Source of the DNA: a virus
Direction: 5' to 3' (one strand)
IMG/VR virus record: IMGVR_UViG_3300046804_003980
Span: 1 to 53,879 of that record
DNA: 53,879 nt
The notes under the pieces were generated by a model. It was not told the DNA's origin. It saw only the letters and a list, made by a program, of their open reading frames with translations, and did not search any database. Below, in pieces: positions 10,757 through 22,597 of the stretch. How positions within the stretch are numbered: position 1 is the stretch's first letter; each line of letters opens with the position of its first letter. The position numbers and the translations under genes are program-made.

Positions 10757-10765
10757 AAGTTCCCT

Positions 10766-11133: not shown

Positions 11134-11134
11134 G

Positions 11135-11482: not shown

Positions 11483-11702
11483 TATTCTCCCTATGCCATT
11501 GTGCTAAAGTTCGGACGGTAAAATCTTGACCCAAATTGTAGCAGAAACGGACTGCCTGTGTCAAATCCTCGGTTTCGTAAAGAGGCGGGGACAAGAGTTC
11601 TACATCAGAGGTATCGTAAACCTCAAATGAATCTACACCACCAGGGGAAACAGAATATTCAACTTCTAGAATTTCTAAAGGTGTTTTATTATACATATTC
11701 AT
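11475..11702 (-). CDS. Hypothetical protein
   Basis: 75 residues, beta-rich look, acidic, no Cys pair. Overlaps the flanking genes by 14 and 8 bases, so translation is coupled. Not recognised. Confidence 0.65.
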   Translation of the reverse strand: MNMYNKTPLEILEVEYSVSPGGVDSFEVYDTSDVELLSPPLYETEDLTQAVRFCYNLGQDFTVRTLAQWHRENND

Positions 11703-12030: not shown

Positions 12031-12232
12031 TAGTAACCTCCTTAATTAGTTCTTGGTGGAGAATTGTAACATATGGATGACGTTTTATCAAGCCCGTCAT
12101 TTTGTCATCATGAGCACAAGTAAGCTCCAGGTTATAGCCATCCAGTTTCTCAACCTCTATACCATGCTTCCATGCATCCATGATCACCGCTCCATAATTG
12201 GAGCGGGACATGGCATCAATGGTTAATATCAT
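12014..12232 (-). CDS. Hypothetical protein
   Basis: 72 residues, mixed alpha/beta, with a conserved-looking ELTCAHDDKMTGLIKRHPY segment. One-base overlap with its upstream gene. No family recognised. Confidence 0.65.
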   Translation of the reverse strand: MILTIDAMSRSNYGAVIMDAWKHGIEVEKLDGYNLELTCAHDDKMTGLIKRHPYVTILHQELIKEVTNGINV

Positions 12233-12876
12233 TAGTATGCGCCTTCTTCAACACGTTCAATCTCAAAATTAGTAACAGAGATTTCTCCGCCATATGAGTC
12301 AACATTTAAGTTATCAGAAACTAATGATTCAATGTCGTAGTCGCCATCAGCCATATCAACTTCAACTGTTAAGTCAACACGAACATAAGCAGTTACTTCA
12401 ATTTCCTTAGTTAGTGGAACATCGAAGATTTCTGCAATCTGAGATAAAGTATCTTGTTCCGATGAGTCAGCATAAACTTCTTCTAAAAGTGTACGTAGTT
12501 GAGATTCCTTGGAATACCAAGCATTTTGTTTTTCAACTAAGTTTTTATAATTGCGACGAGACTGGTCTAGAGCATATTCAATGTCTACAACTTTATCTGA
12601 TGGGTAACTTACTTCCCCATTTTCAATCTTTTTGTATGTAACAAGCAGATTAGGGTTGTAGGTCTCTGGTGTCATTGTTTCCATAGTTTCTTCTTTCTTT
12701 TCGGTTATAGGGAGTATTGTAGCATCTGCCACTGACAAAAGTGTGGCGGGGGACCCACAAAGACATGTGAGTTCTGTCACATTAGGAGTATATCCAGCTT
12801 TCATTGTATATTCAATTAAAGCATCACATTCACCCGTGCAGACATATGTATATTTAGACCAAGTTACTGTCTTCAT
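12232..12876 (-). CDS. Zinc-ribbon protein fused through an internal promoter to a second protein
   Basis: 214 residues. Residues 1-57 (YTYVCTGECDALIEYTM ... LTCLCG) are a paralog of the free zinc-ribbon gene at 13887-14069. Residues 58-64 (PITEKKEE) are translated from what looks like a promoter and leader: an extended -10 TGCTACAAT (12721-12716) and the block leader TAACCGAAAAGAAAG. An in-frame ATG at 12684 (METMTPETYNPN) then begins a second, acidic protein of 150 residues with a coiled-coil part. In the paralog the ribbon stops just here. Two products are therefore likely: the fusion from an upstream promoter and the short form from the internal one. Confidence 0.72.
   Translation of the reverse strand: MKTVTWSKYTYVCTGECDALIEYTMKAGYTPNVTELTCLCGSPATLLSVADATILPITEKKEETMETMTPETYNPNLLVTYKKIENGEVSYPSDKVVDIEYALDQSRRNYKNLVEKQNAWYSKESQLRTLLEEVYADSSEQDTLSQIAEIFDVPLTKEIEVTAYVRVDLTVEVDMADGDYDIESLVSDNLNVDSYGGEISVTNFEIERVEEGAY
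12716..12781 (-). promoter_or_regulatory. Promoter inside coding sequence, with CRP-like palindrome
   Basis: Extended -10 TGCTACAAT with the block motif TTGTCAG in the spacer. The palindrome TGTGA-GTTCTG-TCACA (12766-12781) is perfect and lies inside the zinc-ribbon codons; its centre is 57.5 bp from the outer edge of the -10, the same value as at 13900 and 16762. It would drive the short form starting at 12684. Confidence 0.65.
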
Positions 12877-13100
12877 TATAGGTAATATTCATCTCCTTCT
12901 ACATATCCATAATGCTCGTTGTATTGTTTTTTAATTTCAGGAGTAGCCCATTCAAAGAATCTCCATTCAGCATATAGATTTCCTTCATTTAAATTAGAAC
13001 TATTCCATTGATCAAACAGGTGTTCTTCAATATCAACCTGAATAGCACCTAATATATGTTCTCCTACTCTATCTGAGAATAGGTCATCTACATCAGCCAT
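12876..13100 (-). CDS. Hypothetical protein
   Basis: 74 residues, acidic, aromatic C-terminus (YNEHYGYVEGDEYYL). Overlaps both neighbours by one and eight bases. Not recognised. Confidence 0.65.
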   Translation of the reverse strand: MADVDDLFSDRVGEHILGAIQVDIEEHLFDQWNSSNLNEGNLYAEWRFFEWATPEIKKQYNEHYGYVEGDEYYL

Positions 13101-13872
13101 TTATTTGCTCCATTCTGTAATCAGGGACATGTTCGGAATCCAAATATATCTTATGGGTCTGACATTCTTTGACACAATCAAGGTCTGCCTCGCCCAAATA
13201 ATTACAAGATGAGCAAATCTCACCACAATCATTGTCGCAGTATTCTAGTGTATTTAATTCATCACAATCTCTACACTTATTATCATACTCTTCAATCTCT
13301 GTTACATTTCCACGGAGAATCTCATACTCCCCACCCCAACCTGTCTCCTCCTCAAAACTTAAAGTAAGTAAAGAATTAGGAACAAGATTAGATAGTTTAG
13401 TTAGAACTGTGACAGCAGGAGACCATGCTGTATTATATTTATATACAACCCAGTTATCTTCACCCTCAGATTTATATTCAATTAGTTCTGTTTCAGGATA
13501 TTCATCTCCGTCATGAACAGCAACATCCCATTTGGTTCCCCAGTTAGATGTATTCCAGTTATACCAATCGTGTTGAGTTTTAGCAAACTCTACTTCCTTA
13601 GCAAACCAGTCAGGAGAATTTATGTCAATTCCAAGACGTGCAGGTTGCTTGACATATTCATCCATTGTAATACCGTCCTCTATTGGAGAATGCACATTCC
13701 AAAATGCAAAAACAGGGGCGGAATAAGTAGTCCATGATTGTTCCATTTCACCAGTCTTAGAATTCCAACTATCATGTAATACCTTGAATGGCTTATTTAA
13801 TCTATCTTTAATCATATCTATTTCTTGCTTTGGACCTTGAATTGTCAAGGTGTTATATACCCAGTTTGGCAT
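13093..13872 (-). CDS. Api92-like (DUF1281-type) phage protein
   Basis: 259 residues. The N-terminus MPNWVYNTLTIQGPKQEID is the hallmark of the Api92-like ferredoxin-fold family, which also has the later FAFWNVHSP and WYNWNTSNWGTKWD blocks seen here. An extra C-terminal Cys-rich region (CRDCDE ... CDNDCGEICSSCNYL ... CVKEC) probably binds zinc. The family is widespread in phages and plasmids but its role is unknown. Leader has the CCGAAAGGA ribosome site. Confidence 0.85.
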   Translation of the reverse strand: MPNWVYNTLTIQGPKQEIDMIKDRLNKPFKVLHDSWNSKTGEMEQSWTTYSAPVFAFWNVHSPIEDGITMDEYVKQPARLGIDINSPDWFAKEVEFAKTQHDWYNWNTSNWGTKWDVAVHDGDEYPETELIEYKSEGEDNWVVYKYNTAWSPAVTVLTKLSNLVPNSLLTLSFEEETGWGGEYEILRGNVTEIEEYDNKCRDCDELNTLEYCDNDCGEICSSCNYLGEADLDCVKECQTHKIYLDSEHVPDYRMEQING

Positions 13873-13886
13873 TATATTCCTTTCGG

Positions 13887-14069
13887 TTAGAGAGCCCCAA
13901 TTATAGCATCATACTCTGACACTTTTACTGCTTTACCACCACATGGGCATGTGATATTTATCATATATATAGGTGATACCTCGGAAATATCCATAGTATA
14001 TTCCATAGATGCATCACAGTTTGGACATACATATTCATATACCCACCAGTTACCATTTAAAGTTTGCAT
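13887..14069 (-). CDS. Free-standing zinc-ribbon protein, leaderless
   Basis: 60 residues with CPNC (C15, C18) and CPCG (C41, C43): a compact zinc ribbon, paralogous to the first 57 residues at 12232-12876. The promoter -10 ends six bases before the ATG, so the mRNA is predicted leaderless; there is no ribosome site. The last codons (EYDAIIGAL) contain the -10 of the next promoter and an earlier stretch (YMINITC) contains its CRP-like palindrome, so the gene also acts as the regulatory region of the Api92-like gene. Confidence 0.75.
   Translation of the reverse strand: MQTLNGNWWVYEYVCPNCDASMEYTMDISEVSPIYMINITCPCGGKAVKVSEYDAIIGAL
13900..13965 (-). promoter_or_regulatory. Promoter for the Api92-like operon with CRP-like palindrome
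   Basis: TGCTATAAT at 13908-13900 with GTGTCAG in the spacer. TGTGA-TATTTA-TCATA (13950-13965, one mismatch) is centred 57.5 bp from the -10 edge. Both lie inside the zinc-ribbon gene 13887-14069. Confidence 0.65.
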
Positions 14070-14075
14070 TGCGGA

Positions 14076-14173
14076 ATTATAGCATTCGTAAAGGGATCAT
14101 GTCAACTCTTCTTAATCGTAAATATGGGACAAATTGGACATTTCTTAATGTTCTTAATGTGATTTTTATCACA
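14076..14173 (-). promoter_or_regulatory. Promoter of the leaderless zinc-ribbon gene with CRP-like palindrome
   Basis: -35 TTGACA (14105-14100), 18-bp spacer, TGC-TATAAT (14081-14076). The perfect palindrome TGTGA-TTTTTA-TCACA is at 14158-14173, centre 89.5 bp from the -10 edge, which is three helical turns further than the commonest offset. Confidence 0.75.
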
Positions 14174-14185
14174 GTATCGGCCACA

Positions 14186-14284
14186 CTATTTACATTTTTT
14201 TAAATGATTATTTAAAGTTTCAAATGCAAATCCACTTCGGACTTGTATCTCAGCTTTACACTTTGGACAAATAACTATTTTCAT
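14186..14284 (-). CDS. 32-residue Cys/His zinc-finger miniprotein
   Basis: CPKC (C6, C9) and HLKKC (H28, C32) make a CCHC finger filling nearly the whole protein. The ATG is five bases downstream of the tRNA-Asp 3' end, so both are probably on one leftward transcript and the mRNA is released by tRNA processing. No ribosome site is evident. Unknown role. Confidence 0.5.
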   Translation of the reverse strand: MKIVICPKCKAEIQVRSGFAFETLNNHLKKCK

Positions 14285-14288
14285 TTTG

Positions 14289-14362
14289 CGATTCGGACGG
14301 GACTTGAACCCGCAACCTCCACCGTGACAGGGTGGCGATCTAACCAATTGATCTACCGAACC
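14289..14362 (-). tRNA. tRNA-Asp (GTC)
   Basis: A full cloverleaf on the minus strand: 7-bp acceptor stem (GGTTCGG with CCGAATC, one G-U), D arm with GGTTAGA, anticodon stem CCACC/GGTGG around loop CTGTCAC (anticodon GTC), and T arm GCGGG-TTCAAGT-CCCGT. The discriminator is G and CCA is not encoded. It lies between the DUF932-like gene and the zinc-finger miniprotein. It may compensate for codon demand in the many Asp-rich phage proteins (GAT/GAC). Confidence 0.95.
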
Positions 14363-14367
14363 AAGTG

Positions 14368-14388
14368 GAGCAGTTTTACATCATGCTC
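14368..14388 (-). repeat. 3' stem-loop element, copy A
   Basis: GAGCA pairs with TGCTC around a loop containing GTAAAAC on the minus strand, 12 bases after the stop of the DUF932-like gene. Closely related copies are at 15774-15794 and 16011-16035. Confidence 0.6.
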
Positions 14389-14399
14389 AGGATTTTTCT

Positions 14400-15431
14400 T
14401 TACGCTGTTAGCGCAAGAACTTTTTTCACAATAGAATTTTTTTCTGCTGTGATAACAGGGTCAAAGCCACTAGCGGAATAAATAAGCGATTCGCCATTTG
14501 CTTTTCGTGCTGTGCGATAATAATCTAAACGCTCAGTTAGGGCATTTACTACACCCCACGCTGTGCCTTTGATATTAGCGTTAGTTTCTGAATTATGATA
14601 AAGGTCATCAAGCAGAACAACTTTGTTTTCCCACTTAGTAAGTGAACCTTTCTTATCATGCTCAGGCTTTGGATATAGCGTGTTGATAATCTCAGAGAAT
14701 TTCTTATCTGTGACTTCACGCTGGAATAACAATTCTGCTTGCTTGCTAAATTCATCAAAGTAAGCAACAGATAGATTCAAGGCTTCACGAGCCTGTGCAA
14801 TTTTGCCATCAACTGTCTGCGTATGGCGAATCTTGAAAGATTGCTTTGCAGATTTCATAGCAAAGTTAAGAGTATTTTGGCAACGAACACGAACAGGCGT
14901 GATTGCTGCTTGAACAGCAACAGAACCATCATGGCTAGTATAAACAACTAGATATAGATTGGTTTTGTCGTTAGCACCCTTTGGGTCAAGAACGAGAGTA
15001 GATGGAACATTCCATGTGCCAAATACAACACGACCATTTTTGAAAGACCCTGCTGAATCAACAGTGACATCAGGATTTGAATCGTGGAGATTTTCTGCGA
15101 AAGCAAATAAATCTTCATTTTGAACTTCTTTGTAGCGTGAACCTACAACAGAAAGAACATCTGTGTTGCCCGCTTCAAACGGATTGTCACGAACAACAAG
15201 GAAAGATTCGGTTAAGAAATTGTGATTTGGTGCTAACTCAGAAACAGGCTCTAAGCGAACATTCCAATTCGAGAGATGAGCAGAATCCATAATTTGTTTA
15301 ATTGTAGGTTGCTCCTCATCTGTATTCCAAACATGATTAGCAGCAGAGTGCCAAGCAGGATTTGAGCGGGAATCAACAAGGGTGAAAGTCACAGATTTAT
15401 CTGCGATTTCTTTTGCGTGTGCAAGTGTCAT
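14400..15431 (-). CDS. DUF932-like phage/plasmid protein
   Basis: 343 residues. SVVGSRYKEVQNEDLFAFAENL, GRVVFGTWNVP, YLVVYTSHDGSVAVQAAITPVRVRCQNTLNFAM follow the order of conserved blocks in DUF932 (TIGR03299, phage/plasmid-like protein). Length fits the family (300-370). Members are often in mobile elements near replication functions, but no activity is established. It has its own promoter and an AAAGAAAGG ribosome site. Confidence 0.9.
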   Translation of the reverse strand: MTLAHAKEIADKSVTFTLVDSRSNPAWHSAANHVWNTDEEQPTIKQIMDSAHLSNWNVRLEPVSELAPNHNFLTESFLVVRDNPFEAGNTDVLSVVGSRYKEVQNEDLFAFAENLHDSNPDVTVDSAGSFKNGRVVFGTWNVPSTLVLDPKGANDKTNLYLVVYTSHDGSVAVQAAITPVRVRCQNTLNFAMKSAKQSFKIRHTQTVDGKIAQAREALNLSVAYFDEFSKQAELLFQREVTDKKFSEIINTLYPKPEHDKKGSLTKWENKVVLLDDLYHNSETNANIKGTAWGVVNALTERLDYYRTARKANGESLIYSASGFDPVITAEKNSIVKKVLALTA

Positions 15432-15458
15432 TTTTTACCTTTCTTTAGACGAACCCCA

Positions 15459-15488
15459 AGTATAACAGATTGGTTTAGCATTTGTCAA
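15459..15488 (-). promoter_or_regulatory. Promoter of the DUF932-like gene
   Basis: -35 TTGACA (15488-15483) and -10 TATACT (15464-15459), 18-bp spacer. A perfect TGTGA-N6-TCACA also occurs at 15556-15571 inside the neighbouring small gene, but it is out of helical phase with this -10. Confidence 0.65.
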
Positions 15489-15498
15489 TAGTATCTCA

Positions 15499-15597
15499 CT
15501 ATTTGATACGAAGAGTTTTATAAAATACCCATAAACCCACGCCTAGAATTGCTGGTGTGAGCAAAATCACAAACGGTGCTAAAAGTACAGTTTCCAT
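15499..15597 (-). CDS. 32-residue membrane miniprotein, nearly leaderless
   Basis: METVLLAPFVILLTPAILGV and GLWVFYKTLRIK form one membrane span with a basic tail. The -10 TAAAAT ends eight bases before the ATG, so the mRNA is predicted to have a leader of one or two bases. Function unknown. Confidence 0.5.
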   Translation of the reverse strand: METVLLAPFVILLTPAILGVGLWVFYKTLRIK

Positions 15598-15605
15598 AAC
15601 CCCCT

Positions 15606-15661
15606 ATTTTATCGTAAGTCCATGGGTTTTGTCAAGCTTTCTTAATGTGATGTTAATCACA
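15606..15661 (-). promoter_or_regulatory. Promoter with CRP-like palindrome for the membrane miniprotein
   Basis: -35 TTGACA (15635-15630), 18-bp spacer, -10 TAAAAT (15611-15606). The perfect palindrome TGTGA-TGTTAA-TCACA is at 15646-15661, centre 47.5 bp from the -10 edge. Confidence 0.7.
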
Positions 15662-15773
15662 CGGGTCGGCCCGTCTCACAATATGGAATAGCGTCGTGGG
15701 CTACGAATTTAATTCCAGCTATTGCTGCACGATCTTATCGGTTATCACTCCTGGCTATTTATTTAATTGTGTG
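15662..15773. other. Non-coding interval
   Basis: No convincing gene is seen on either strand. It contains a short palindrome GGGTCGGCCC (15663-15672) next to the CRP-like site and is otherwise unremarkable. Confidence 0.4.
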
Positions 15774-15794
15774 AAGCAGTTTTATAACTTGCTT
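15774..15794 (-). repeat. 3' stem-loop element, copy C
   Basis: AAGCA/TGCTT stem with loop containing ATAAAAC on the minus strand, 12 bases after the stop of the gene at 15807-15974. The stem bases differ from copies A and B in a compensating way (A-T instead of G-C), which supports base pairing. Confidence 0.6.
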
Positions 15795-15806
15795 AGGTTA
15801 ATTTGT

Positions 15807-15974
15807 TTAGTAAGTTTTTACCATAGCAAAACGAGTTTGATTATTTGCTAGGCGCAACATAACACGAGTTACATTGTTACGAACAGGTGTAAATTTTTCA
15901 ATACGACCTGTTACTCCAGCATTTGATGTTGTGAATAAATCACCGATTTGGTAAGTGTATCCGCCAAGTGTCAT
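15807..15974 (-). CDS. Small beta-rich protein, paralog 1 (YQIGDLFTTS)
   Basis: 55 residues, starting MTLGGYTYQIGDLFTTSNAGVTGRIEKF. It is paralogous to the 53-residue protein at 16569-16730 (YQVGDLFTTSKSKVTGTIKEI), which confirms the frame and start. The pattern (short strands, V-T-G turn, alternating hydrophobics) suggests an SH3-like barrel or KOW-like fold; no known family is named. Leader carries AACCCGAA and AGAAAGG. Confidence 0.72.
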   Translation of the reverse strand: MTLGGYTYQIGDLFTTSNAGVTGRIEKFTPVRNNVTRVMLRLANNQTRFAMVKTY

Positions 15975-16010
15975 TTTTATTTTTGCCTTTCTATTCGGGT
16001 TTAGTTAGGG

Positions 16011-16035
16011 TGAGCAGTTTATTATGACTTGCTCA
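16011..16035 (-). repeat. 3' stem-loop element, copy B
   Basis: TGAGCA/TGCTCA stem with loop containing AATAAAC on the minus strand, between the gene ending at 16058 and the start at 15974. It lies 22 bases after the stop. Confidence 0.6.
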
Positions 16036-16057
16036 GGTCAGTTTCCCGATTTAGGAA

Positions 16058-16483
16058 TTATAGATAACGAGCAACAGCATTGTAAGTAGAAGTTGAAACT
16101 ACTTCCTCATCTGTCATTTTCAGAATACGAATTGCGTTAGACAATTCCTCTTTCATCTCGTTGTATGTGTGTTGATGAAGTTGCTCAAAATCTCTCTGTG
16201 GTTCAACAGGGAAATCTGCTTCATTACAGGTTAGGTCAAAATCTACATTGAGAGTTTTGTTCCATGAGCGATAGTTGGTGCGGAAGTTCTCTGCTTTTGC
16301 TATGTTAGCAACAGCAAACTTACCTACTTCTTTGCGCCACTTCTCAACAGATTTTTGATACTTTGCTTCATTTTCAGATTGGTTTTCCCAATCCTTTTCT
16401 AACTTAGCAAGGCGAGTTTCAAGTGCCTTGATGATTTTAGGGGTAGCGATTTTTACGCTAATTGCTTTTTGGTTTCTAGCCAT
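16058..16483 (-). CDS. Coiled-coil hypothetical protein
   Basis: 141 residues, Lys/Glu-rich with a long coiled coil (about 17-65) and a second helical part near the end. Leader has the block-typical AACCCGAAAGGA ribosome site. Located between the two paralogous 55-residue genes, with one of the 3' stem-loops behind it. Not recognised. Confidence 0.72.
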   Translation of the reverse strand: MARNQKAISVKIATPKIIKALETRLAKLEKDWENQSENEAKYQKSVEKWRKEVGKFAVANIAKAENFRTNYRSWNKTLNVDFDLTCNEADFPVEPQRDFEQLHQHTYNEMKEELSNAIRILKMTDEEVVSTSTYNAVARYL

Positions 16484-16521
16484 TTGTTTTGTTTCCTTTC
16501 GGGTTAGGGTTTGAGAGAGTT

Positions 16522-16553
16522 ATTATAGCAGGGGGGTCAGACATTGACCCCCC
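16522..16553 (-). promoter_or_regulatory. Promoter enclosed in a 9-bp inverted repeat
   Basis: GGGGGGTCA (16531-16539) pairs perfectly with TGACCCCCC (16545-16553). TGC-TATAAT (16530-16522) follows directly. The repeat includes the ATGTC spacer motif and could be both a terminator hairpin for the gene ending at 16569 and an operator for the promoter of the coiled-coil gene. Confidence 0.6.
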
Positions 16554-16568
16554 TGTATTATTATTTAG

Positions 16569-16730
16569 TTATGCCTTGAAAGTAGTCCAGCGAGTATCGC
16601 CATTTACTTCAAGTTTCACACGCACCGAGCCAGATGCGTTCGGAACAATCTCCTTGATAGTTCCTGTGACCTTTGACTTGCTAGTAGTGAATAAATCTCC
16701 TACTTGATAAGTTTTGCCATTTGCGGTCAT
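16569..16730 (-). CDS. Small beta-rich protein, paralog 2 (YQVGDLFTTS)
   Basis: 53 residues: MTANGKTYQVGDLFTTSKSKVTGTIKEIVP then a Ser/Val-rich second half. Paralog of 15807-15974. Shorter than routine ORF limits. It has its own promoter with CRP-like palindrome, and a hairpin after its stop. Function unknown. Confidence 0.72.
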   Translation of the reverse strand: MTANGKTYQVGDLFTTSKSKVTGTIKEIVPNASGSVRVKLEVNGDTRWTTFKA

Positions 16731-16761
16731 TTTGCTTCCTTTCTATTTGTTGTTAGGTGGT

Positions 16762-16827
16762 ATTCTAGCATACGAGCCATGTTACTCGCAAGTAGAAATC
16801 GTGTTATTTGGTGTGATTTACATCACA
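16762..16827 (-). promoter_or_regulatory. Promoter with CRP-like palindrome
   Basis: TTGCGA, 18-bp spacer, TGC-TAGAAT (16767-16762). The perfect palindrome TGTGA-TTTACA-TCACA is at 16812-16827, centre 57.5 bp from the -10 edge; it overlaps the stop codon of the gene upstream (16823-16825). Confidence 0.72.
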
Positions 16828-16951
16828 TAAATTCGAACGGGTCTCTATCCTCGAAAATAGACTCAAATAGTGCTAAATCTCCTGTCTCCAGGGCATAGTC
16901 TAAATCTAGTGCCATATTTTCTCTGATCCGCTCTGCTTGCTCATCTATCAT
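16823..16951 (-). CDS. 42-residue acidic hypothetical protein
   Basis: Coupled by ATGA to the gene at 16948-17259. Acidic and helical (LDLDYALETGDLALFESIFEDRD). Its last codons and stop lie in the CRP-like palindrome of the next promoter. Confidence 0.55.
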   Translation of the reverse strand: MIDEQAERIRENMALDLDYALETGDLALFESIFEDRDPFEFM

Positions 16952-17259
16952 TCTGCATCACCGATGCAATCTGAACAATCGCAATACCATGCATGATTAA
17001 CCCATGCATCAAGGTGGTGTCCCTCGACAATAGCATTAGCAGGTGCAGAGTCTTGCCCACGCCATGATACGCCTTCGGGTAGTTTAATTAACTTATCATA
17101 GTCCTCATCATTACATGCTTCAATAGCTTCTATGCAAGGGTCAATCATAGAAAGCGGGACGGGTGGATAGTGATTACTCCTTAATTGTATTGCAATACTA
17201 TCACGCAGAGATACATCTAAATCTCCACTTGCTAATTCGGTTGCTAAATTACTTCCCAC
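16948..17259 (-). CDS. Hypothetical protein with C-terminal Cys/His cluster
   Basis: 103 residues. C-terminal HHLDAWVNHAWYCDCSDC offers several metal ligands. Overlaps both neighbours by 11 and 4 bases. Not recognised. Confidence 0.68.
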   Translation of the reverse strand: MGSNLATELASGDLDVSLRDSIAIQLRSNHYPPVPLSMIDPCIEAIEACNDEDYDKLIKLPEGVSWRGQDSAPANAIVEGHHLDAWVNHAWYCDCSDCIGDAE

Positions 17260-17458
17260 TTACTTCTCCATTTCTATAAAAATTCATTGTGTGCATTTTG
17301 CCATTAGGTTCAAGTAGATTATAGGTTGCATAGTCTTTGGCATCTCCTACATCTACGCATTTTCTAAACGCATCTACGGCAGATAGCGCATCTGAAAATC
17401 TATAACTAGAGTGATAATTTCCGTCATAGTGTGTAGTTATTACATAGTTGTATTCCAT
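17249..17458 (-). CDS. Small hypothetical protein
   Basis: 69 residues, Tyr/Asn-rich (MEYNYVITTHYDGNYHSSYRF), with a central helix. Leader has CGAAAGGA. First gene of the unit 17458-16823. Function unknown. Confidence 0.66.
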   Translation of the reverse strand: MEYNYVITTHYDGNYHSSYRFSDALSAVDAFRKCVDVGDAKDYATYNLLEPNGKMHTMNFYRNGEVSGK

Positions 17459-17481
17459 GATTATCCTTTCGAGAGTAGTTG

Positions 17482-17520
17482 ATTATAGCAGAGGGGACTG
17501 ACATTGGTCAAATCCCCTCT
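17482..17520 (-). promoter_or_regulatory. Promoter enclosed in an 8-bp inverted repeat
   Basis: AGAGGGGA (17490-17497) pairs with TCCCCTCT (17513-17520). Between the arms lie TTGACC (-35) and AATGTCAG; TGC-TATAAT (17490-17482) follows. It is the second promoter of this block wrapped in a hairpin, six bases after the stop of the upstream gene. Confidence 0.6.
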
Positions 17521-17525
17521 GAGCC

Positions 17526-18023
17526 TTACCATGAGGACTGATAATAAAAGGACAAATCCTCAAAATCGGGCAATTCGGTCAATTTGGACAATTGCTTGAT
17601 AGTTGATTTAATTCCATCCCAATAATATTCATCAATATCATATGAACCAAAAAAGAAACCTGCTTGTGGCATTAATTCTTTAGGGTCTTTATGGAATAAG
17701 GCTTGACGGGCGGTAGTTAAAAGTTCCTTTAACTTATCATGAGATACATAGTATTCACCGCAGTCATCCTCGCCATCTTGTACATTTTGTACAAACCAAT
17801 TATGAACAGAATTAACTTTGCGCCAATAAGCAGCATTTACGCTAACACTTACGCCATAAATATCTTTTTCATCTGCTACATGATCTAAACCAGCAGCATT
17901 TACAATATTATTCCATTGTGGGAAAGTAGCAGCAGCATAGTCTATTTCATCTTGTTTATCAAGAATAGACCAATCTATTTTATTTACATATTTACGAGCA
18001 GAGAGATACATATCTAAACCCAT
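17526..18023 (-). CDS. Conserved phage protein of the MGLDMYL type
   Basis: 165 residues. MGLDMYLSARKYV, AYWRKVNSVHNWFVQNVQDGEDDCGEYYVS and GFFFGSYDIDEYYWD form the block pattern of a phage family that is common in tailed phages and has no known function. A buried Cys and many acidic residues are conserved in it. It shares a transcript with the gene starting at 18306. Confidence 0.78.
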   Translation of the reverse strand: MGLDMYLSARKYVNKIDWSILDKQDEIDYAAATFPQWNNIVNAAGLDHVADEKDIYGVSVSVNAAYWRKVNSVHNWFVQNVQDGEDDCGEYYVSHDKLKELLTTARQALFHKDPKELMPQAGFFFGSYDIDEYYWDGIKSTIKQLSKLTELPDFEDLSFYYQSSW

Positions 18024-18027
18024 TTAA

Positions 18028-18306
18028 TTATTCTCCTAACACATCTCTTGAAATTTGGTCAAACATTTCTACTTCCTCGACCATAGCATTAAATTGACTT
18101 TCGGTCATAAGAATAGAAGTAATGCGAGTTGCAACATTGGCAGTTAAAGTGCCTGAGTATTTGAACATAAGAGAAATTAATTCTTCCTCTGATAGATAAT
18201 TTGCAGTTTTAACAATTTCAGCAGCCATAGTCATAACTTCGAAATCTGTCATGGCTTCTTTGCTTGCTTCTGCAATTGCGTGTGCTTGTGCAATTCCACT
18301 TAACAT
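18028..18306 (-). CDS. Helical hypothetical protein
   Basis: 92 residues, all helical by eye, Ala/Glu/Met-rich, no Cys. Leader ends CACCCGAAAGAAAGGAAACCACA before ATG. First gene of the unit 18306-17526. Not recognised. Confidence 0.68.
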   Translation of the reverse strand: MLSGIAQAHAIAEASKEAMTDFEVMTMAAEIVKTANYLSEEELISLMFKYSGTLTANVATRITSILMTESQFNAMVEEVEMFDQISRDVLGE

Positions 18307-18336
18307 TGTGGTTTCCTTTCTTTCGGGTGAGGTGCA

Positions 18337-18421
18337 ATTATACTAAATCCCACCGACATTTTCAATTTGACACGCCGTAATTCTCATAATTTGAGACAAA
18401 AATGTGGTGATAAATATCACA
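18337..18421 (-). promoter_or_regulatory. Promoter with CRP-like palindrome
   Basis: TTGAAA, 17-bp spacer starting ATGTCGG, TATAAT (18342-18337). GGTGA-TAAATA-TCACA (18406-18421, one mismatch) is centred 76.5 bp from the -10 edge. Confidence 0.7.
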
Positions 18422-18452
18422 TTCGTAACGACACGCCCGACTGCGTCGGCCA
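18417..18452. repeat. 36-bp direct repeat with GC-rich hairpin, copy 1
   Basis: Identical over 36 bases to 19890-19925. It runs from the CRP-like half-site TCACA through TTCGTAACGACACG to a CCGAC-TGC-GTCGG stem (18437-18449). A third, diverged copy with the same stem is at 20862-20874. Confidence 0.75.
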
Positions 18453-18501
18453 ATGTCCGTTATGTCCAAATTATTTACGCATAAATTAAAGAATTATGAA
18501 A

Positions 18502-18525
18502 GGGCCTGGTGTCAGATCCAGGCCC
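18502..18525 (-). terminator. Terminator of the 19034-18548 unit
   Basis: GGGCCTGG (18502-18509) and CCAGGCCC (18518-18525) form a perfect 8-bp GC-rich stem with an 8-base loop. Reading leftward, TTTCATAATTCTTTAA follows; the gene upstream stops 22 bases earlier. Confidence 0.8.
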
Positions 18526-18547
18526 CTTCTCTCTCTCACCCGTTACA

Positions 18548-18745
18548 TTAAAAATCTACGGGCACATCTATATTTAAATCCTGGAATGCTAACATAGCAT
18601 AAACCTGAATCTCTTCTTCTGTTGCTTCGGACCAATCTACGTAGTTCATGAAATCCATTTGATTTTGTACACGCAGCGCAATTTCATCTGAAACACCAAG
18701 CTTGTCAGCAATCATGTATGTAAAAATATTTCCGCCTTTAATCAC
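18548..18745 (-). CDS. Small acidic hypothetical protein
   Basis: 65 residues, acidic, helical (DEIALRVQNQMDFMNYVDWSE). Starts one base after the upstream stop. Not recognised. Confidence 0.65.
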   Translation of the reverse strand: MIKGGNIFTYMIADKLGVSDEIALRVQNQMDFMNYVDWSEATEEEIQVYAMLAFQDLNIDVPVDF

Positions 18746-18746
18746 A

Positions 18747-19034
18747 TTACACCGCCAATTCTAAAATTGCACTAGTGCCACCGTGATTAATTTCTGCTAA
18801 TTTGCTAATGATATCTGCACGAGACATTGATTTAAGGTCAGAGAAATATTCACGAATGCATGCAACATTCATTTGAGCAAATGTTTCTGCAGGCACAAGC
18901 ATTAAACGCATATGGAATTCTGAGCCTTGGCGAATTTTTGAATTAAACTGTACACCGTCAACACTGAATGGATGACAATCCCATTCCGCTGTAGTAGTAT
19001 CGGGAGCGATATATTCTGTATTTTTATTTTTCAT
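18747..19034 (-). CDS. Hypothetical protein
   Basis: 95 residues, mixed alpha/beta. Leader with CTAACCCGAAAGAAG before ATG. First gene of the unit. Family not recognised. Confidence 0.68.
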   Translation of the reverse strand: MKNKNTEYIAPDTTTAEWDCHPFSVDGVQFNSKIRQGSEFHMRLMLVPAETFAQMNVACIREYFSDLKSMSRADIISKLAEINHGGTSAILELAV

Positions 19035-19063
19035 TTTTTCTTCTTTCGGGTTAGAGTTGGTTA

Positions 19064-19093
19064 ATTATATACTGGTGAGCAGGTCTTTGTCAA
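19064..19093 (-). promoter_or_regulatory. Leftward promoter of 19034-18548
   Basis: -35 TTGACA (19093-19088), 18-bp spacer, TATAAT (19069-19064). This promoter has neither the spacer motif nor a CRP-like palindrome, so it may be constitutive relative to the others. It overlaps the stop of the gene 19096-19269. Confidence 0.7.
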
Positions 19094-19095
19094 GT

Positions 19096-19269
19096 TTAGT
19101 TACAAGGACCAAACTCATCCCAAGCAAAATATTCATTTTCTTGACCAATGCAATCGCAAGCCAATCTTTCGACATTACCTTGCATGTCAAGAATTACGAA
19201 ACCTGCGCCCTCGCAATCATTACAAGGAACGCCAACGATTTCTGCAATTTCATCAAACGGAGTTTTCAT
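19096..19269 (-). CDS. DnaJ-type CxxCxGxG zinc miniprotein, paralog 1
   Basis: 57 residues with CNDCEGAGFV and CDC, the half-zinc-centre pattern also seen in DnaJ. Paralog of the 40-residue protein at 19567-19689 (CSDCKGSGIV ... CDC). AGGAGAATAAT precedes the ATG. Not on routine gene lists because of size. Confidence 0.62.
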   Translation of the reverse strand: MKTPFDEIAEIVGVPCNDCEGAGFVILDMQGNVERLACDCIGQENEYFAWDEFGPCN

Positions 19270-19273
19270 TTTA

Positions 19274-19480
19274 TTATTCTCCTGTGCTAACTGCTAAAGT
19301 TCGCCAAACTTTTTTGATACCATGAGTAGGGCGAATTTCTACGAGATAACTCTCGCAATTCTCACCATACCAAACGGCACGATTATCTTTTTCCGCATGA
19401 GTAATTTCACCCTCTACGGAACGGGAACGATAGAATTTTCCTACAAGTAGGCTTTCAATTGAGTAGATATTTGCTGACAT
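19274..19480 (-). CDS. Small protein, paralog 1 (SANIYSIESLLVGKFYRSRSVEGE)
   Basis: 68 residues from ATG 19480. A longer frame reaches 19540, but that would put the promoter (19505-19510) inside the gene; the 65-residue paralog at 21782-21979 begins MSANLYSIEGLLVGKLYRSRSVEGE, which fixes the start. AGAGGTAAAA is the ribosome site. Predicted beta-rich fold, function unknown. Confidence 0.78.
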   Translation of the reverse strand: MSANIYSIESLLVGKFYRSRSVEGEITHAEKDNRAVWYGENCESYLVEIRPTHGIKKVWRTLAVSTGE

Positions 19481-19504
19481 TTTTACCTCTTTCTTTGTGT
19501 CGCT

Positions 19505-19571
19505 ATTATAGCAAACGGGTCTGACATTTTCAAGCGACACGCCGTAGCGTGTCAGTGTGATTTATATCACA
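19505..19571 (-). promoter_or_regulatory. Promoter with perfect CRP-like palindrome
   Basis: TTGAAA, 17-bp spacer starting ATGTCAG, TGC-TATAAT (19510-19505). The palindrome TGTGA-TTTATA-TCACA (19556-19571) is a perfect CRP/GlxR-type site, centre 58.5 bp from the -10 edge. A further GACACGC-CGTA-GCGTGTC inverted repeat lies between them. Confidence 0.82.
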
Positions 19572-19689
19572 CTTCGGGGGTTTCGTGATTTGGATTACAA
19601 TCACACCATTCAAAATCATAGTCCCCGTCAGGTGAAACCCAACCATTGACTATTCCTGAACCTTTACAATCTGAACAATTTTTATTCAT
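19567..19689 (-). CDS. DnaJ-type CxxCxGxG zinc miniprotein, paralog 2
   Basis: 40 residues, CSDCKGSGIV and CDC, paralog of 19096-19269. Overlaps the upstream gene by eight bases. Its stop codon lies in the CRP-like palindrome of the next promoter. Confidence 0.5.
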   Translation of the reverse strand: MNKNCSDCKGSGIVNGWVSPDGDYDFEWCDCNPNHETPEV

Positions 19690-19774
19690 GGATACACTCA
19701 CTTTCTATTTCATGTCCAAACTCATCTACGAGTTCCTCATAAATTTCATCTATATAATCTAAAAAATCTGACAT
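19682..19774 (-). CDS. 30-residue acidic peptide
   Basis: MSDFLDYIDEIYEELVDEFGHEIE: an acidic amphipathic helix. AAAGGAAAACTAA lies before the ATG. First gene of the short unit driven by the promoter at 19808. Unknown role. Confidence 0.45.
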   Translation of the reverse strand: MSDFLDYIDEIYEELVDEFGHEIESECIHE

Positions 19775-19807
19775 TTAGTTTTCCTTTCTTATTTTCTAAC
19801 TATCGTT

Positions 19808-19894
19808 AGTTTAGCATAACCCACCGACATTTTTCAACTTACTAGCAAGTAATTTCATATTTTGAGACGCTCAAGTCCTGTGATAAATCTCACA
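19808..19894 (-). promoter_or_regulatory. Promoter with CRP-like palindrome
   Basis: TTGAAA, 18-bp spacer with ATGTCGG, TGC-TAAACT (19813-19808). The perfect palindrome TGTGA-TAAATC-TCACA (19879-19894) is centred 78.5 bp from the -10 edge. Confidence 0.68.
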
Positions 19895-19925
19895 TTCGTA
19901 ACGACACGCCCGACTGCGTCGGCCA
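19890..19925. repeat. 36-bp direct repeat with GC-rich hairpin, copy 2
   Basis: Identical to 18417-18452; stem CCGAC-TGC-GTCGG at 19910-19922. Confidence 0.75.
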
Positions 19926-19942
19926 GTTAGTTGAATATTAAA

Positions 19943-20098
19943 CTATTTAAAAAAAGGCGAAACAAGATCACTAAATATTTTTAGTGATTTGTTTTTTTTA
20001 TGTTTTGTTTTACGAGTATATTTCTTTTTATTTTTTTGTGGAGTTGCTGCATTACTGCGACGCAATTCCTGAACTCGTTTTACTTTTTCATTTGTCAT
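19943..20098 (-). CDS. 51-residue very basic protein
   Basis: MTNEKVKRVQELRRSN followed by a Lys-dense centre (NKKKYTRKTKHKKNKSLK). About 35 percent Lys/Arg, likely nucleic-acid binding. Its last codons include a hairpin that may terminate transcription. Coupled closely to 20101-20196. Confidence 0.5.
   Translation of the reverse strand: MTNEKVKRVQELRRSNAATPQKNKKKYTRKTKHKKNKSLKIFSDLVSPFFK
19967..19988 (-). terminator. Possible terminator at the 3' end of the basic gene
   Basis: ATCACTAAA (19967-19975) pairs with TTTAGTGAT (19980-19988), 9 bp, 4-base loop; leftward it is followed by CTTGTTTCGCCTTTTTTT. It overlaps the last codons of 19943-20098. Confidence 0.5.
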
Positions 20099-20100
20099 TG

Positions 20101-20196
20101 TTATACCTCACAATCATGTCCAAAATAAAATTCAGCTGCATCGTTTTCATCAAACATATCAAAACGACGATTACACTCTACGCATTTCTCAAACAT
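20101..20196 (-). CDS. 31-residue zinc-finger miniprotein
   Basis: CVEC (C5, C8) and HDC (H27, C29) provide four ligands. Starts three bases after the previous stop. Very small; supported by the ligand spacing and tight packing only. Confidence 0.45.
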   Translation of the reverse strand: MFEKCVECNRRFDMFDENDAAEFYFGHDCEV

Positions 20197-20198
20197 TT

Positions 20199-20483
20199 TT
20201 AGTTTTCCTTTCTAATTTCATGCAAACGAATTACTTTTGCAAACTTTCTAGCACCTACACGGACACGCTCACCCGTGAAACAATTTGTACAATACAAACC
20301 CTCATGAGCAAATTCGCAAATTTTGCAGGTGCGAATTGTAGGATTATCTAAACGCTTAACTACAATTTCTGAAATAGGTGTAGTCATTAAACCTAATTCT
20401 AAATCCATGACTAAATCTTTATCAGCGAATTCAATAGGCTGAAATTCTAAATCGTTAATTCTTTTAATTTCTAAATTTGACAT
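20199..20483 (-). CDS. Hypothetical protein with C-terminal zinc ribbon
   Basis: 94 residues from the ATG at 20483 with GGGAG ten bases upstream; the longer frame to 20498 needs a TTG. Ligands CKIC and CTNC, about 14 residues apart, form a zinc ribbon near residues 65-85, followed by a basic segment (RVRVGARKFAKVIRLH). Function unknown. Confidence 0.68.
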   Translation of the reverse strand: MSNLEIKRINDLEFQPIEFADKDLVMDLELGLMTTPISEIVVKRLDNPTIRTCKICEFAHEGLYCTNCFTGERVRVGARKFAKVIRLHEIRKEN

Positions 20484-20488
20484 TGAAA

Positions 20489-20677
20489 TTACTCCCAACT
20501 TCTAGTAGTAGCGAAAACCTTACGATTTGAAGGTTTATAATTTGGAAGGTAAGTTAGATTTACCTCATCTATAATTTGTTTTTGTGAAACTAAATCTAGG
20601 AAAGAGTTAGCGTATTCCTCAGAGGGAACTAGGAGAGTAGTAGAACTACCGCCTACTTTATAATTTAGTGAGAACAT
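20489..20677 (-). CDS. Small hypothetical protein
   Basis: 62 residues, polar, no motif. First gene of the unit read from the promoter at 20728. Ribosome site AAAGGAGAACCAA. Not recognised. Confidence 0.65.
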   Translation of the reverse strand: MFSLNYKVGGSSTTLLVPSEEYANSFLDLVSQKQIIDEVNLTYLPNYKPSNRKVFATTRSWE

Positions 20678-20727
20678 TTGGTTCTCCTTTCTTTTTTATT
20701 TATTCTTATTTAATTTTGTATAATGGA

Positions 20728-20846
20728 ATTATAGCATGGGGGTCTGACATTTTTGGGGCGACAAAACGGACATTTGCGACAATTGGGATTGTGAGTTAGG
20801 TCACATTTTATTTTTACGCTCAAAAGTTCAGGTGATTTAGGTCACA
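20728..20846 (-). promoter_or_regulatory. Promoter with two CRP-like palindromes
   Basis: ATGTCAG spacer motif and TGC-TATAAT (20733-20728). Palindromes TGTGA-GTTAGG-TCACA (20790-20805, perfect) and GGTGA-TTTAGG-TCACA (20831-20846, one mismatch) are centred 69.5 and 110.5 bp from the -10 edge, 41 bp apart, close to four helical turns. Confidence 0.72.
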
Positions 20847-20861
20847 ATCTTAAAGACACGC

Positions 20862-20874
20862 CCGACTGCGTCGG
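20862..20874. repeat. GC-rich hairpin, copy 3
   Basis: CCGAC-TGC-GTCGG, preceded by AAAGACACGC as in the other two copies but otherwise diverged. Confidence 0.6.
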
Positions 20875-20879
20875 TCCAT

Positions 20880-20895
20880 TCGAACATTTGTTCGA
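20880..20895. promoter_or_regulatory. LexA/SOS-box-like palindrome
   Basis: TCGAAC-ATTT-GTTCGA fits the actinobacterial SOS box TCGAAC-N4-GTTCGA exactly, and the symmetry extends loosely to TCCAT/ATGGA on either side. It lies 150 bp upstream of the nearest leftward -10 and 18 bp after a doubtful small ORF, so it may instead be a 3' hairpin. Confidence 0.45.
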
Positions 20896-20912
20896 GATGG
20901 ATAGATCAGCTT

Positions 20913-21044
20913 TTATTCTTCTTCTTTTGGAAAAAATCCATTTTGCTTTATATCTAAATAAAGTTGTTTTGCGCAATAATAACAAACAATAAATAAATTT
21001 AATTGAATTAGTGAAGTGATTAGTCTATTCAGCGTCAAGGTCAA
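20913..21044 (-). CDS. Doubtful 43-residue ORF
   Basis: From a TTG at 21044 (or 21038). The part CYYCAKQLYLDIKQNGFFPKEEE looks protein-like, but the start is non-ATG and no ribosome site is clear. The rest of 20678-21024 holds only the regulatory elements listed. Confidence 0.3.
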   Translation of the reverse strand: MTLTLNRLITSLIQLNLFIVCYYCAKQLYLDIKQNGFFPKEEE

Positions 21045-21213
21045 ACTCGCTTTCATCAAATTCAATCGCTAAATCTTTTTCATCTACTAAATCAAGCGGG
21101 ATTTCATCTGATTCAGTTTCAGTTTCGATTTCTTCATTTTCCCAATATTCAGGCTCTCTGTCCCATGGGTCATACTTTTTTTCCCAAGAGGGAACATAAC
21201 TAGTCATGGTCAT
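21025..21213 (-). CDS. Acidic hypothetical protein
   Basis: 62 residues, roughly 40 percent Asp/Glu (ETETESDEIPLDLVDEKDL). Probably disordered. One-base overlap with the upstream gene. Not recognised. Confidence 0.65.
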   Translation of the reverse strand: MTMTSYVPSWEKKYDPWDREPEYWENEEIETETESDEIPLDLVDEKDLAIEFDESEFDLDAE

Positions 21214-21407
21214 TACTTTACCACACTTTCATTTTTTCCATAAACTGCTTGAATAAATCTATCTTCGTTAAAATTAGGGTTATCATCTGCAAACATATCC
21301 GCAAAATCAAAAACTAATTCTTTGAAATCTGAAATTTCTACGGGGTAATTTGATAAGTAGCGATTTAGGATTTCCGCTACTGCTACATAGTCTTTTCGGG
21401 TCATCAT
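21213..21407 (-). CDS. Hypothetical helical protein
   Basis: 64 residues, two predicted helices and an acidic centre (FADMFADDNPNFNEDRF). Starts ATGATG two bases after the previous stop. Not recognised. Confidence 0.65.
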   Translation of the reverse strand: MMTRKDYVAVAEILNRYLSNYPVEISDFKELVFDFADMFADDNPNFNEDRFIQAVYGKNESVVK

Positions 21408-21408
21408 T

Positions 21409-21573
21409 TTACTGCACCTCTATTTTCATTATATTAGCAGAAAACTTTACTTTTTCTGCTTGCTTACTTTTATTTAAGTTAGCCACTAGGGTATCTATAT
21501 CGTTAATATTAGTAGCAACATTTCCAACAGATAGCAAACGGCTACCTTGCCATAGGGAGTATTCTATTTTCAT
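21409..21573 (-). CDS. 54-residue hypothetical protein
   Basis: Coupled by one-base overlap (TAATG) to 21573-21674. MKIEYSLWQGSRLLSVGNVATNIND begins a beta-rich N-terminus; the rest is Lys/Asn-rich. Not recognised. Confidence 0.55.
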   Translation of the reverse strand: MKIEYSLWQGSRLLSVGNVATNINDIDTLVANLNKSKQAEKVKFSANIMKIEVQ

Positions 21574-21674
21574 TATTTAGTCTCACTTTCTTTTTTAGTT
21601 AATACGGACATAGCCTCTAGGGTAGAAGCCTTACGCTGTGCCTCTACATAGGCACGGAACTCATCTAGGTTCAT
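21573..21674 (-). CDS. 33-residue helical peptide
   Basis: MNLDEFRAYVEAQRKASTLEAMSVLTKKE is one amphipathic helix. AGAAAGGATAACTAACAA precedes the ATG. First gene of the unit driven by the promoter at 21725. Confidence 0.5.
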   Translation of the reverse strand: MNLDEFRAYVEAQRKASTLEAMSVLTKKESETK

Positions 21675-21724
21675 TTGTTAGTTATCCTTTCTAAGATACT
21701 TACTTATTTATTTGTTATGGCGTT

Positions 21725-21791
21725 AGCCTACCATAAGCCACCGACAATTTCAAGCGACACGCCGATAGGCGTTAGTGTGATTTAGCCCACA
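21725..21791 (-). promoter_or_regulatory. Promoter with CRP-like palindrome
   Basis: TTGAAA, 17-bp spacer TTGTCGG, -10 TAGGCT (weak). TGTGA-TTTAGC-CCACA (21776-21791, one mismatch) is centred 58.5 bp from the -10 edge and overlaps the stop of 21782-21979. ACGCC-GAT-AGGCGT lies between them. Confidence 0.62.
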
Positions 21792-21979
21792 CTTACGGCT
21801 ACTGAGCGGTAGGTGTATCCTCCGCCACTTTTACGGATACGGACACGATACGCCTCAGCGTTATCATACCATACGGCGTGAGGGTGCTTTTCAGCCTCTA
21901 CGATTTCGCCCTCTACGGAGCGGGAGCGATAAAGCTTACCTACTAGTAAGCCCTCTATTGAATAAAGATTAGCAGACAT
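21782..21979 (-). CDS. Small protein, paralog 2 (SANLYSIEGLLVGKLYRSRSVEGE)
   Basis: 65 residues, close paralog of 19274-19480 (about 60 percent identical over the first 40 residues). The block duplicates gene plus promoter type, since the GACACGCC inverted repeat and CRP-like site follow both genes. Predicted beta-rich; function unknown. Confidence 0.78.
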   Translation of the reverse strand: MSANLYSIEGLLVGKLYRSRSVEGEIVEAEKHPHAVWYDNAEAYRVRIRKSGGGYTYRSVAVSVG

Positions 21980-22161
21980 TATTTAGACACTTTCCAATCT
22001 GTCCACATAGGTAGACGCTCAGGGTCAGTATCGTTATACCAACTTTCAATATTATTTTCACAAACCTCGCAGAAAGTGAAACGCTCATCTCCAACCATAG
22101 AGATAGCAGATTTATTAGGGGTGTGTGTCTTACACACTTCGTTAATTGTTAGTGTAGTCAT
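21979..22161 (-). CDS. Zinc-finger-like hypothetical protein
   Basis: 60 residues with C10, H12 and FCEVC (C31, C34) as candidate ligands, Trp-rich C-terminus. One-base overlap with 21782-21979. AAAGAAAGGTGG before the ATG. Not recognised. Confidence 0.66.
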   Translation of the reverse strand: MTTLTINEVCKTHTPNKSAISMVGDERFTFCEVCENNIESWYNDTDPERLPMWTDWKVSK

Positions 22162-22255
22162 TTGAGACCACCTTTCTTTAGTAGTTAATTTTGTTTTGCT
22201 GACCTGATTATTTGCTTACTTATTTAGTAAGGCTCACAGGATTTTTATTTAGTTT

Positions 22256-22489
22256 TTATTTCTTACAATACTTAGCGTATTTTACGAATAACTTTCGGTA
22301 TCCGCAGGTATCGCAGTATCTATTGAAGTAAGGTTGCTTAGTAGCAACACCTTGAACATCTGTCCAAGTAGTATGCTTACAAGTAGGGTCATTACCCGCT
22401 ACATTGTAGTCATTGTAGTAGTAAGGGACATGGCTCCAAAGTTGGTAGCCGTTAGCGATTACTTTATCTAATTTTTTTTCTAGTGACAT
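22256..22489 (-). CDS. Cys/His-rich hypothetical protein
   Basis: 77 residues, Tyr/Trp-rich, with C37-K-H39 and YCDTCGY further on as metal ligands. AAAGGACAATAAA before the ATG. Outermost leftward gene of the block. Similar small proteins of actinophages have no assigned role. Confidence 0.68.
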   Translation of the reverse strand: MSLEKKLDKVIANGYQLWSHVPYYYNDYNVAGNDPTCKHTTWTDVQGVATKQPYFNRYCDTCGYRKLFVKYAKYCKK

Positions 22490-22521
22490 TTTATTGTCCT
22501 TTCTTTTTATCTAATAAGTAA

Positions 22522-22597
22522 ATACTAGCACACCTCTCTGACATTTTCAAGTCGCAAAACGGACATTTCGGATATTTTTTATGTGATTTAGACCACA
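22522..22597 (-). promoter_or_regulatory. Promoter with CRP-like palindrome
   Basis: TTGAAA, 17-bp spacer starting ATGTCAG, TGC-TAGTAT (22527-22522). TGTGA-TTTAGA-CCACA (22582-22597, one mismatch) is centred 67.5 bp from the -10 edge. The region 22598-22700 up to the divergent promoter holds no further recognisable feature. Confidence 0.65.

Follow-up and report, generated by a model that had tools for sequence, protein, structure and literature searches.

The recurrence of one short palindrome upstream of successive promoters in a phage genome raises the questions of what these sites do and which protein occupies them. The DNA considered here (the window), a virus record, is 53,879 bases long and has a G+C content of 34%. 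It contains 13 palindromes of the form TGTGA-N6-TCACA with no more than one half-site mismatch, eight of them perfect, and all are found in one 9.8-kb leftward block. Counted sites, from which palindromes overlapping a -35 or -10 were left out, lie upstream of the -35 without overlap, as in class I promoters, and their distances to the predicted -10 boxes follow a helical period. The observation is real and strongly non-random. Our reading, which draws on sequence and to which we assign a probability of roughly 0.68, is that the palindromes are operators at which a CRP-family dimer, most likely the host orthologue of GlxR/CRP, would bring about class I activation of early phage promoters. That the binder is a host GlxR/CRP, that it activates, and that the genes are expressed early are steps that we infer.

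Palindromes and promoters of the leftward block

In 60 first-order Markov simulations of the window, perfect sites averaged 0.07 with a maximum of one, against eight observed, and sites with up to one mismatch averaged 2.4 with a maximum of seven, against 13. At up to two mismatches the total (27, against a chance mean of 31.5) shows no excess; the signal therefore resides only in the strong sites, and none of these occurs in the rest of the 53.9-kb window; equally many there would have spoken against the proposal made in the initial annotation of this DNA. All twelve palindromes that it listed were recovered at the centres it gave, and its twelve distances are correct, with the last base of the -10 as their end point; the distance d used here runs from the palindrome centre to the first base of the -10 and is 5 smaller. 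Seven rather than eight of the twelve are perfect, the other five having one mismatch, and they serve 11 leftward promoters rather than ten. The thirteenth site, also perfect (15556-15571, centre 15563.5), lies inside a 32-codon micro-open reading frame (micro-ORF), with d = 99.5.

When the window and 20 relatives were combined and the spacer between half-sites was varied from 0 to 16, 99 exact palindromes were counted at spacer 6 and 0-1 at each other length. An Rfam scan of positions 9000-24000 brought tRNA alone to the family threshold. Chance inverted repeats, or intergenic RNA hairpins acting as terminators, could be invoked on the grounds that short inverted repeats are common and that the two-mismatch count is at chance level; however, the excess of perfect sites over simulation, the spacer control, the Rfam result and the phasing described below make such an origin of negligible probability, and we reject it.

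Read leftward, the order is palindrome, 10 to 74 bp, a -35 hexamer (often TTGAAA), a spacer of 17-18 bp, often TGn, and the -10. The spacer usually starts with ATGTC(A/G)G, immediately downstream of the -35 and 10 bp upstream of the -10, constituting a second conserved promoter element, for which we know of no factor. In its strict form this TGTCRG promoter pattern is found in the window at nine leftward positions, all within 12.7-22.6 kb, and at no rightward one; a looser -10 admits 11 leftward matches, one of them (at 451) outside the block, and two rightward. A palindrome is present at eight of the nine strict promoters, the one at 17503 being without. Related TGTC boxes (AAATGTCCG, GGCGTGTCGC) occur further upstream of window promoters. 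At the promoters 14076-14105 and 15606-15635, the ATG of a micro-ORF follows only 6 and 8 bases after the -10, so that the transcripts of these two micro-ORFs would have little or no leader; another palindrome lies within each of them (13957.5 and 15563.5, respectively).

Conservation and turnover among relatives

A scan with the DUF932 protein of the block gave 36 loci, of which one (L001) was dropped, its DUF932 protein being 100% identical and its 13 sites the same, and was taken as the same phage. From 3 to 14 palindromes are carried by 31 of the remaining 35 loci; none occurs in L032-L034 and L036, whose DUF932 identity is 30-52% and whose G+C content is 40-50%. In three relatives analysed end to end, 7 of 8, 10 of 12 and 9 of 9 sites fall within an oppositely transcribed block (26 of 29 overall), and two more lie less than 400 bp from the block end. 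Within the site, A is rare at position 6 (0.05), and the most frequent bases of the two central positions are T and A. In the window and 20 relatives, an upstream site accompanies 75 of 192 TGTCRG promoters, compared with 349 of 6300 random anchors (5.5%); in this count the window stands at 7 of 8, and the lowest locus, L016, at 1 of 10. Near the downstream block end, two to three palindromes occur together in G006 (79154 and 79182), L007 (15895 and 15921), L018 (15626-15725) and L022 (16003 and 16090), and in the last three of these loci they precede a promoter of the form TTGACA-ttacga...-TATGCT.

Helical phasing and a mechanism

The proposal that the sites share one face of the helix is borne out, relative to predicted -10 boxes, in the window and in the relatives alike. 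In the window the phase statistic R is 0.72 at 10.5 bp (Monte Carlo p = 0.002; 12 promoters with one site each, the period left free within 10-11 bp and the out-of-phase site included). Among relatives fetched regardless of palindromes, R is 0.63-0.64 (period 10.5-10.75 bp) for the 130 of 205 dereplicated sites that have a clear promoter, the other 75 having been dropped for a best promoter score below 10.5; a promoter threshold of 9 keeps 187 of the 205, with R = 0.58. An enlarged set of 772 pairs, falling into 80 downstream-gene families, yields R = 0.76 with one vote per family and a best period of 10.5 bp, and the distances to the -10 in these families peak near 42.5, 52.5, 62.5, 72.5, 84.5, 95 and 105.5 bp. 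For this set 76 of the 772 pairs were dropped where the downstream ORF was not clear, and near-identical loci were retained, the unique pairs numbering 694. The set adds L086-L205 (at least 120 loci), which were selected by a pattern, an exact palindrome followed by ATGTCAG after 20-50 bp, so that sampling was not random; a separate count was therefore made on loci chosen regardless of palindromes, in which 45 ortholog families, again with one vote each, give R = 0.71. At the DUF932 promoter, sites occupy seven helical registers, 0 to 6 (57 pairs, R = 0.71), and upstream of the same gene in different phages they lie whole helical turns apart. The helical dependence characteristic of class I activation is seen here in the statistics of position, not in activity.

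In the mechanism that we favor, a CRP-family dimer would bind the palindrome, ~40-105 bp upstream of the -10 and on one helix face, and would touch RNA polymerase, presumably through its flexibly tethered alpha C-terminal domain. With such a contact a site may move by whole helical turns, not by half turns, and the class I contact would switch on the leftward phage promoters. It is established that CRP-family proteins can also repress, and the sites might alternatively be operators for repression or silencing, as in a late shut-off of early genes; however, the counted sites lie upstream of the promoter, and a placement at 40-105 bp with strict phasing fits polymerase contact better, which renders repression very improbable.

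Identity of the binding protein

The initial annotation had wired the block to a cAMP/CRP-like regulator of the host or to a factor of the phage's own that uses this site. Motif, location, conservation and phasing strongly support a CRP-type activator. As for a factor of the phage's own, a CRP-type helix-turn-helix (HTH_Crp_2) was found in none of 15 phage records (13 of them palindrome-bearing, some fragments), and a CRP-family protein encoded by the phage is unsupported and was rejected on that basis. A Pfam scan of 57 of the 85 window ORFs matched 21 families, with WhiB as the sole transcription factor. The promoters could still be activated or timed by a phage-encoded DNA-binding protein of another family, with host CRP not involved: most block proteins are without known function, the palindrome is not enriched in candidate host genomes (see below), and a regulator could hide in the relative G006, where the scan covered 103 of 125 ORFs and the matches listed comprise 25 of 64 Pfam families. 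Such a protein is unlikely, however, given a motif that matches CRP/GlxR down to its N6 spacer, and a phage-made activator could not start the first genes unless carried in the virion.

A host CRP as the binder is consistent with the finding of a GlxR/CRP orthologue match (E <= 1e-30) in 223 of 296 genomes of the Nanopelagicales (acI), which were reached through a 16S probe (17 stretches) and represent a candidate host order. Six acI CRPs share the GASRETVNKALADFA recognition helix with PDB 3d0s, which we take to be the CRP of M. tuberculosis, and 218 of 396 Actinomycetota genomes contain perfect sites. A DUF932 homologue is present in two of the 296 Nanopelagicales genomes. One of the two is on the 4.7-kb contig G651:C161 (DUF932 identity 53%), which looks phage-derived and on which a palindrome and a -10 are 51.5 bp apart by hand count; as evidence for this host order it is weak.

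Evidence weighing against host-driven class I activation

Several observations count against the interpretation offered above. No site with up to one mismatch is found at 117 of the 192 TGTCRG promoters, and the window site at 15563.5 is out of phase. Among the 12 largest families, the 22 pairs of the MPNWV family show no phasing (R = 0.08), and in three further families phasing is weak (R = 0.31, 0.38 and 0.55). The E. coli register (-61.5, -71.5 and -82.5; PMC6301791) is not reproduced; the common phage positions, if the -10 begins at -12, are -64.5, -74.5 and -84.5, ~3 bp upstream. Motif prediction of Pho boxes in a cyanophage turned out to be unreliable unless backed by binding assays (PMC10976474). 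Finally, 41 of the 772 pairs, at 57.5/58.5, are displaced by half a turn. Among the pairs listed of this last class (L097, L104, L110, L118, L130 and others), ATGTCCG is mostly joined to the palindrome or just behind it, or a GCGACACGCC box stands behind the palindrome, and these pairs may represent a different promoter type.

The extra TGTC-type boxes beside the palindrome in most half-turn pairs, together with the fixed distance of the TGTCRG box to the -10 and its near restriction to the same block, would favor an arrangement in which the palindrome binder has as its cooperating partner not polymerase but a second factor, bound to the DNA at the TGTCRG box, and in which the phase refers to that box. 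Phase is nevertheless kept at promoters lacking strict TGTCRG (118 unique pairs, R = 0.66; 32 families, R = 0.72; box variants not removed), and it therefore more likely refers to polymerase. In the window, moreover, the sites at 16819.5, 15653.5 and 14165.5 serve promoters devoid of TGTCRG at 52.5, 42.5 and 84.5. A second factor of this kind is thus quite improbable, and reference of the phase to the box is rejected.

Further evidence against comes from the candidate host genomes. Perfect sites number 21, in 19 of 151 Nanopelagicales genomes, against 48 for a reversed control, hence no enrichment, and sites with up to one mismatch number 97 against 94 for the control in six Nanopelagicales genomes. 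In P. versatilis, the only acI genome examined in full, there is no intergenic site of at least 10 bits by a crude gene map; its four sites of at least 10 bits are all coding, with scrambled-matrix control means of 2.3 and 63. A class III adenylate cyclase (PF00211) was detected in none of seven Nanopelagicales genomes (G015-G019, G021 and G651), which makes the involvement of cyclic AMP (cAMP) doubtful for acI-type hosts. Because acI genomes are unenriched, P. versatilis has no such intergenic sites and the PF00211 cyclase is lacking from those seven, our confidence in host CRP is lower than in class I activation of the CRP type. Two readings would accommodate this: a host elsewhere among the actinobacteria, or phage use of a host protein that has a different-looking regulon of its own. 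A more speculative extension, which we consider unlikely, is that in a lineage of uncultivated actinophages the terminal early region forms a CRP regulon in its own register, ~3 bp from that of E. coli, and that the streamlined host keeps a GlxR-type protein, has almost no sites for it in its own genome and may lack cAMP, such that the phage would be the main user of the regulator and would read host physiology through it.

Lineage and genome layout

The window ribonucleotide reductase (RNR) shows 67% identity to those of Streptomyces phages such as Navo, Jay2Jay and Evy, and the DUF932 protein 48-50% identity to those of Angela and its relatives. A WhiB-like protein is found in 12 of 15 phage records, the window included; such proteins are described in PMC10202952 as restricted to Actinobacteriota. 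By sequence, the virus family probably infects actinobacteria and is related to the Stanwilliamsviridae, a relatedness that is based on RNR and DUF932 homologues, WhiB and conserved block order and is not a formal family assignment. As in the Stanwilliamsviridae phages Angela and Jay2Jay, homologous RNR and DUF932 genes accompany a leftward block beside rightward genes; Angela also has WhiB, and its annotated homologous block is duplicated, being present at both genome ends with equal gene lengths, which indicates a terminal repeat of ~11 kb. The window block is flanked by rightward genes, WhiB to one side and RNR to the other, a position as would be expected if a terminal repeat had collapsed during assembly. 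This position, and the many small genes with their own promoters, suggest expression of the block early after entry. Unlike the window, the end regions of Angela and Jay2Jay have no palindrome at up to one mismatch (10 sites each at two mismatches) and a G+C content of 52-53% compared with 34%; inheritance of the sites from Streptomyces phages is unsupported.

Features of the window are collected in the table. Directly to the right of the block, 22740-24127 encodes two proteins with weak oxygenase/endonuclease PHROG matches. A 1339-aa protein (36746-40765) combines tail-fibre matches with an N-terminal domain of the major tropism determinant type (Mtd_N), and at 42204-53617 ORFs of 195-302 aa, most of them rightward, follow one another.

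Table. Predicted genes, promoters and CRP-like palindromes of the window (d, palindrome centre to first base of the -10, in bp)
Feature	Coordinates	Strand	d	Remarks
WhiB-like protein gene	1518..1691	+		actinophage marker
Leftward block of small genes	9871..22489	-
Promoter	12716..12745	-		TGTCAG in spacer, -35 poor, TACAAT
CRP-like palindrome	12766..12781	.	52.5	perfect
Promoter	13900..13928	-		TGTCAG in spacer, TATAAT
CRP-like palindrome	13950..13965	.	52.5	1 mismatch
Promoter	14076..14105	-		TTGACA-N18-TATAAT, without TGTCRG element
CRP-like palindrome	14158..14173	.	84.5	perfect
tRNA-Asp(gtc)	14288..14362	-		within block
DUF932 gene	14400..15431	-		343 aa; query used for finding relatives
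Promoter	15459..15488	-		TTGACA-N18-TATACT, of DUF932 gene
CRP-like palindrome (13th)	15556..15571	.	99.5	perfect, within micro-ORF, out of phase
Promoter	15606..15635	-		TTGACA-N18-TAAAAT, of 32-codon micro-ORF, without TGTCRG element
CRP-like palindrome	15646..15661	.	42.5	perfect
Promoter	16762..16791	-		TTGCGA-N18-TAGAAT, without TGTCRG element
CRP-like palindrome	16812..16827	.	52.5	perfect
Promoter	18337..18365	-		TTGAAA-N17-TATAAT, ATGTCGG in spacer
CRP-like palindrome	18406..18421	.	71.5	1 mismatch
Promoter	19505..19533	-		TTGAAA-N17-TATAAT, ATGTCAG in spacer
CRP-like palindrome	19556..19571	.	53.5	perfect
Promoter	19808..19837	-		TTGAAA-N18-TAAACT, ATGTCGG in spacer
CRP-like palindrome	19879..19894	.	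73.5	perfect
Promoter	20728..20756	-		-35 poor, ATGTCAG in spacer, TATAAT
CRP-like palindrome	20790..20805	.	64.5	perfect
CRP-like palindrome	20831..20846	.	105.5	1 mismatch, shares promoter with 20790..20805
Promoter	21725..21753	-		TTGAAA-N17-TAGGCT, TGTCGG in spacer
CRP-like palindrome	21776..21791	.	53.5	1 mismatch
Promoter	22522..22550	-		TTGAAA-N17-TAGTAT, ATGTCAG in spacer
CRP-like palindrome	22582..22597	.	62.5	1 mismatch

Comparison with known systems

At lac, a class I CRP-dependent promoter of E. coli, the site lies 49.5 bp from the first base of the -10. The common phage register is 52.5, 62.5 and 72.5, and one orthologous phage promoter uses seven registers, unlike E. coli class I promoters. 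The ~3-bp offset, which refers to predicted -10 positions, may be the actinobacterial register or a sign of differing geometry; the literature searched did not give the placement of GlxR with respect to an actinobacterial -10. For E. coli, PMC6301791 gives cooperativity factors of 5.8 at -64.5 and 763 at -61.5 (its Table 1). The likeness to E. coli class I promoters extends to the same 16-bp palindrome upstream of a sigma70-type promoter and to a periodicity of ~10.5 bp, which concerns activity in the synthetic E. coli series and site position in the phages.

In C. glutamicum, GlxR has the consensus TGTGA-N6-TCACA and is an activator of ldhA (PMC7999487). The phage sites share this consensus with the GlxR/Crp regulon, and the acI CRPs have the actinobacterial CRP recognition helix; unlike that regulon, the sites are on a phage, and the fully scanned acI genome is without such intergenic sites. 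A parallel in function is the PhoB control of cyanophage S-PM2d (PMC10976474), in which phage promoters likewise use a host regulator to track host physiology, as supported there by gel shift. S-PM2d relies on the two-component PhoBR system with few promoters bound, whereas the present case involves a CRP-type palindrome with strict phasing, known from sequence alone.

In a wider scan, an exact palindrome combined with a consensus promoter pattern was found at 39 viral loci. Ten of these (L213, L214, L215, L225, L226, L234, L236, L238, L242 and L244) have variants of one conserved promoter with its site at 58.5 (five) or 68.5 (five), positions that differ by one turn and are close to the register of E. 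coli, and seemingly belong to a different phage group. One locus with a 58.5/68.5 site encodes a DNA polymerase whose best matches are in pelagiphages (48%), and CRP-type control of phage promoters may therefore have arisen more than once. L236 encodes a DNA polymerase, a primase/helicase and a large terminase.

CRP/GlxR control of this kind in phages was not found in the literature searched, mostly by listings, which is no proof of its being unpublished; as far as that literature shows, the finding is new in scale and in its phage setting, not in principle. In phage T4, polymerase modified by ModA can no longer interact with CRP (PMC2988021). If our reading is correct, a large group of actinophages would do the reverse, placing the genes that it expresses first under a global regulator of the CRP type. 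The 80 gene families would then represent a natural experiment on class I activation, and would provide a directly testable register for actinobacterial CRP.

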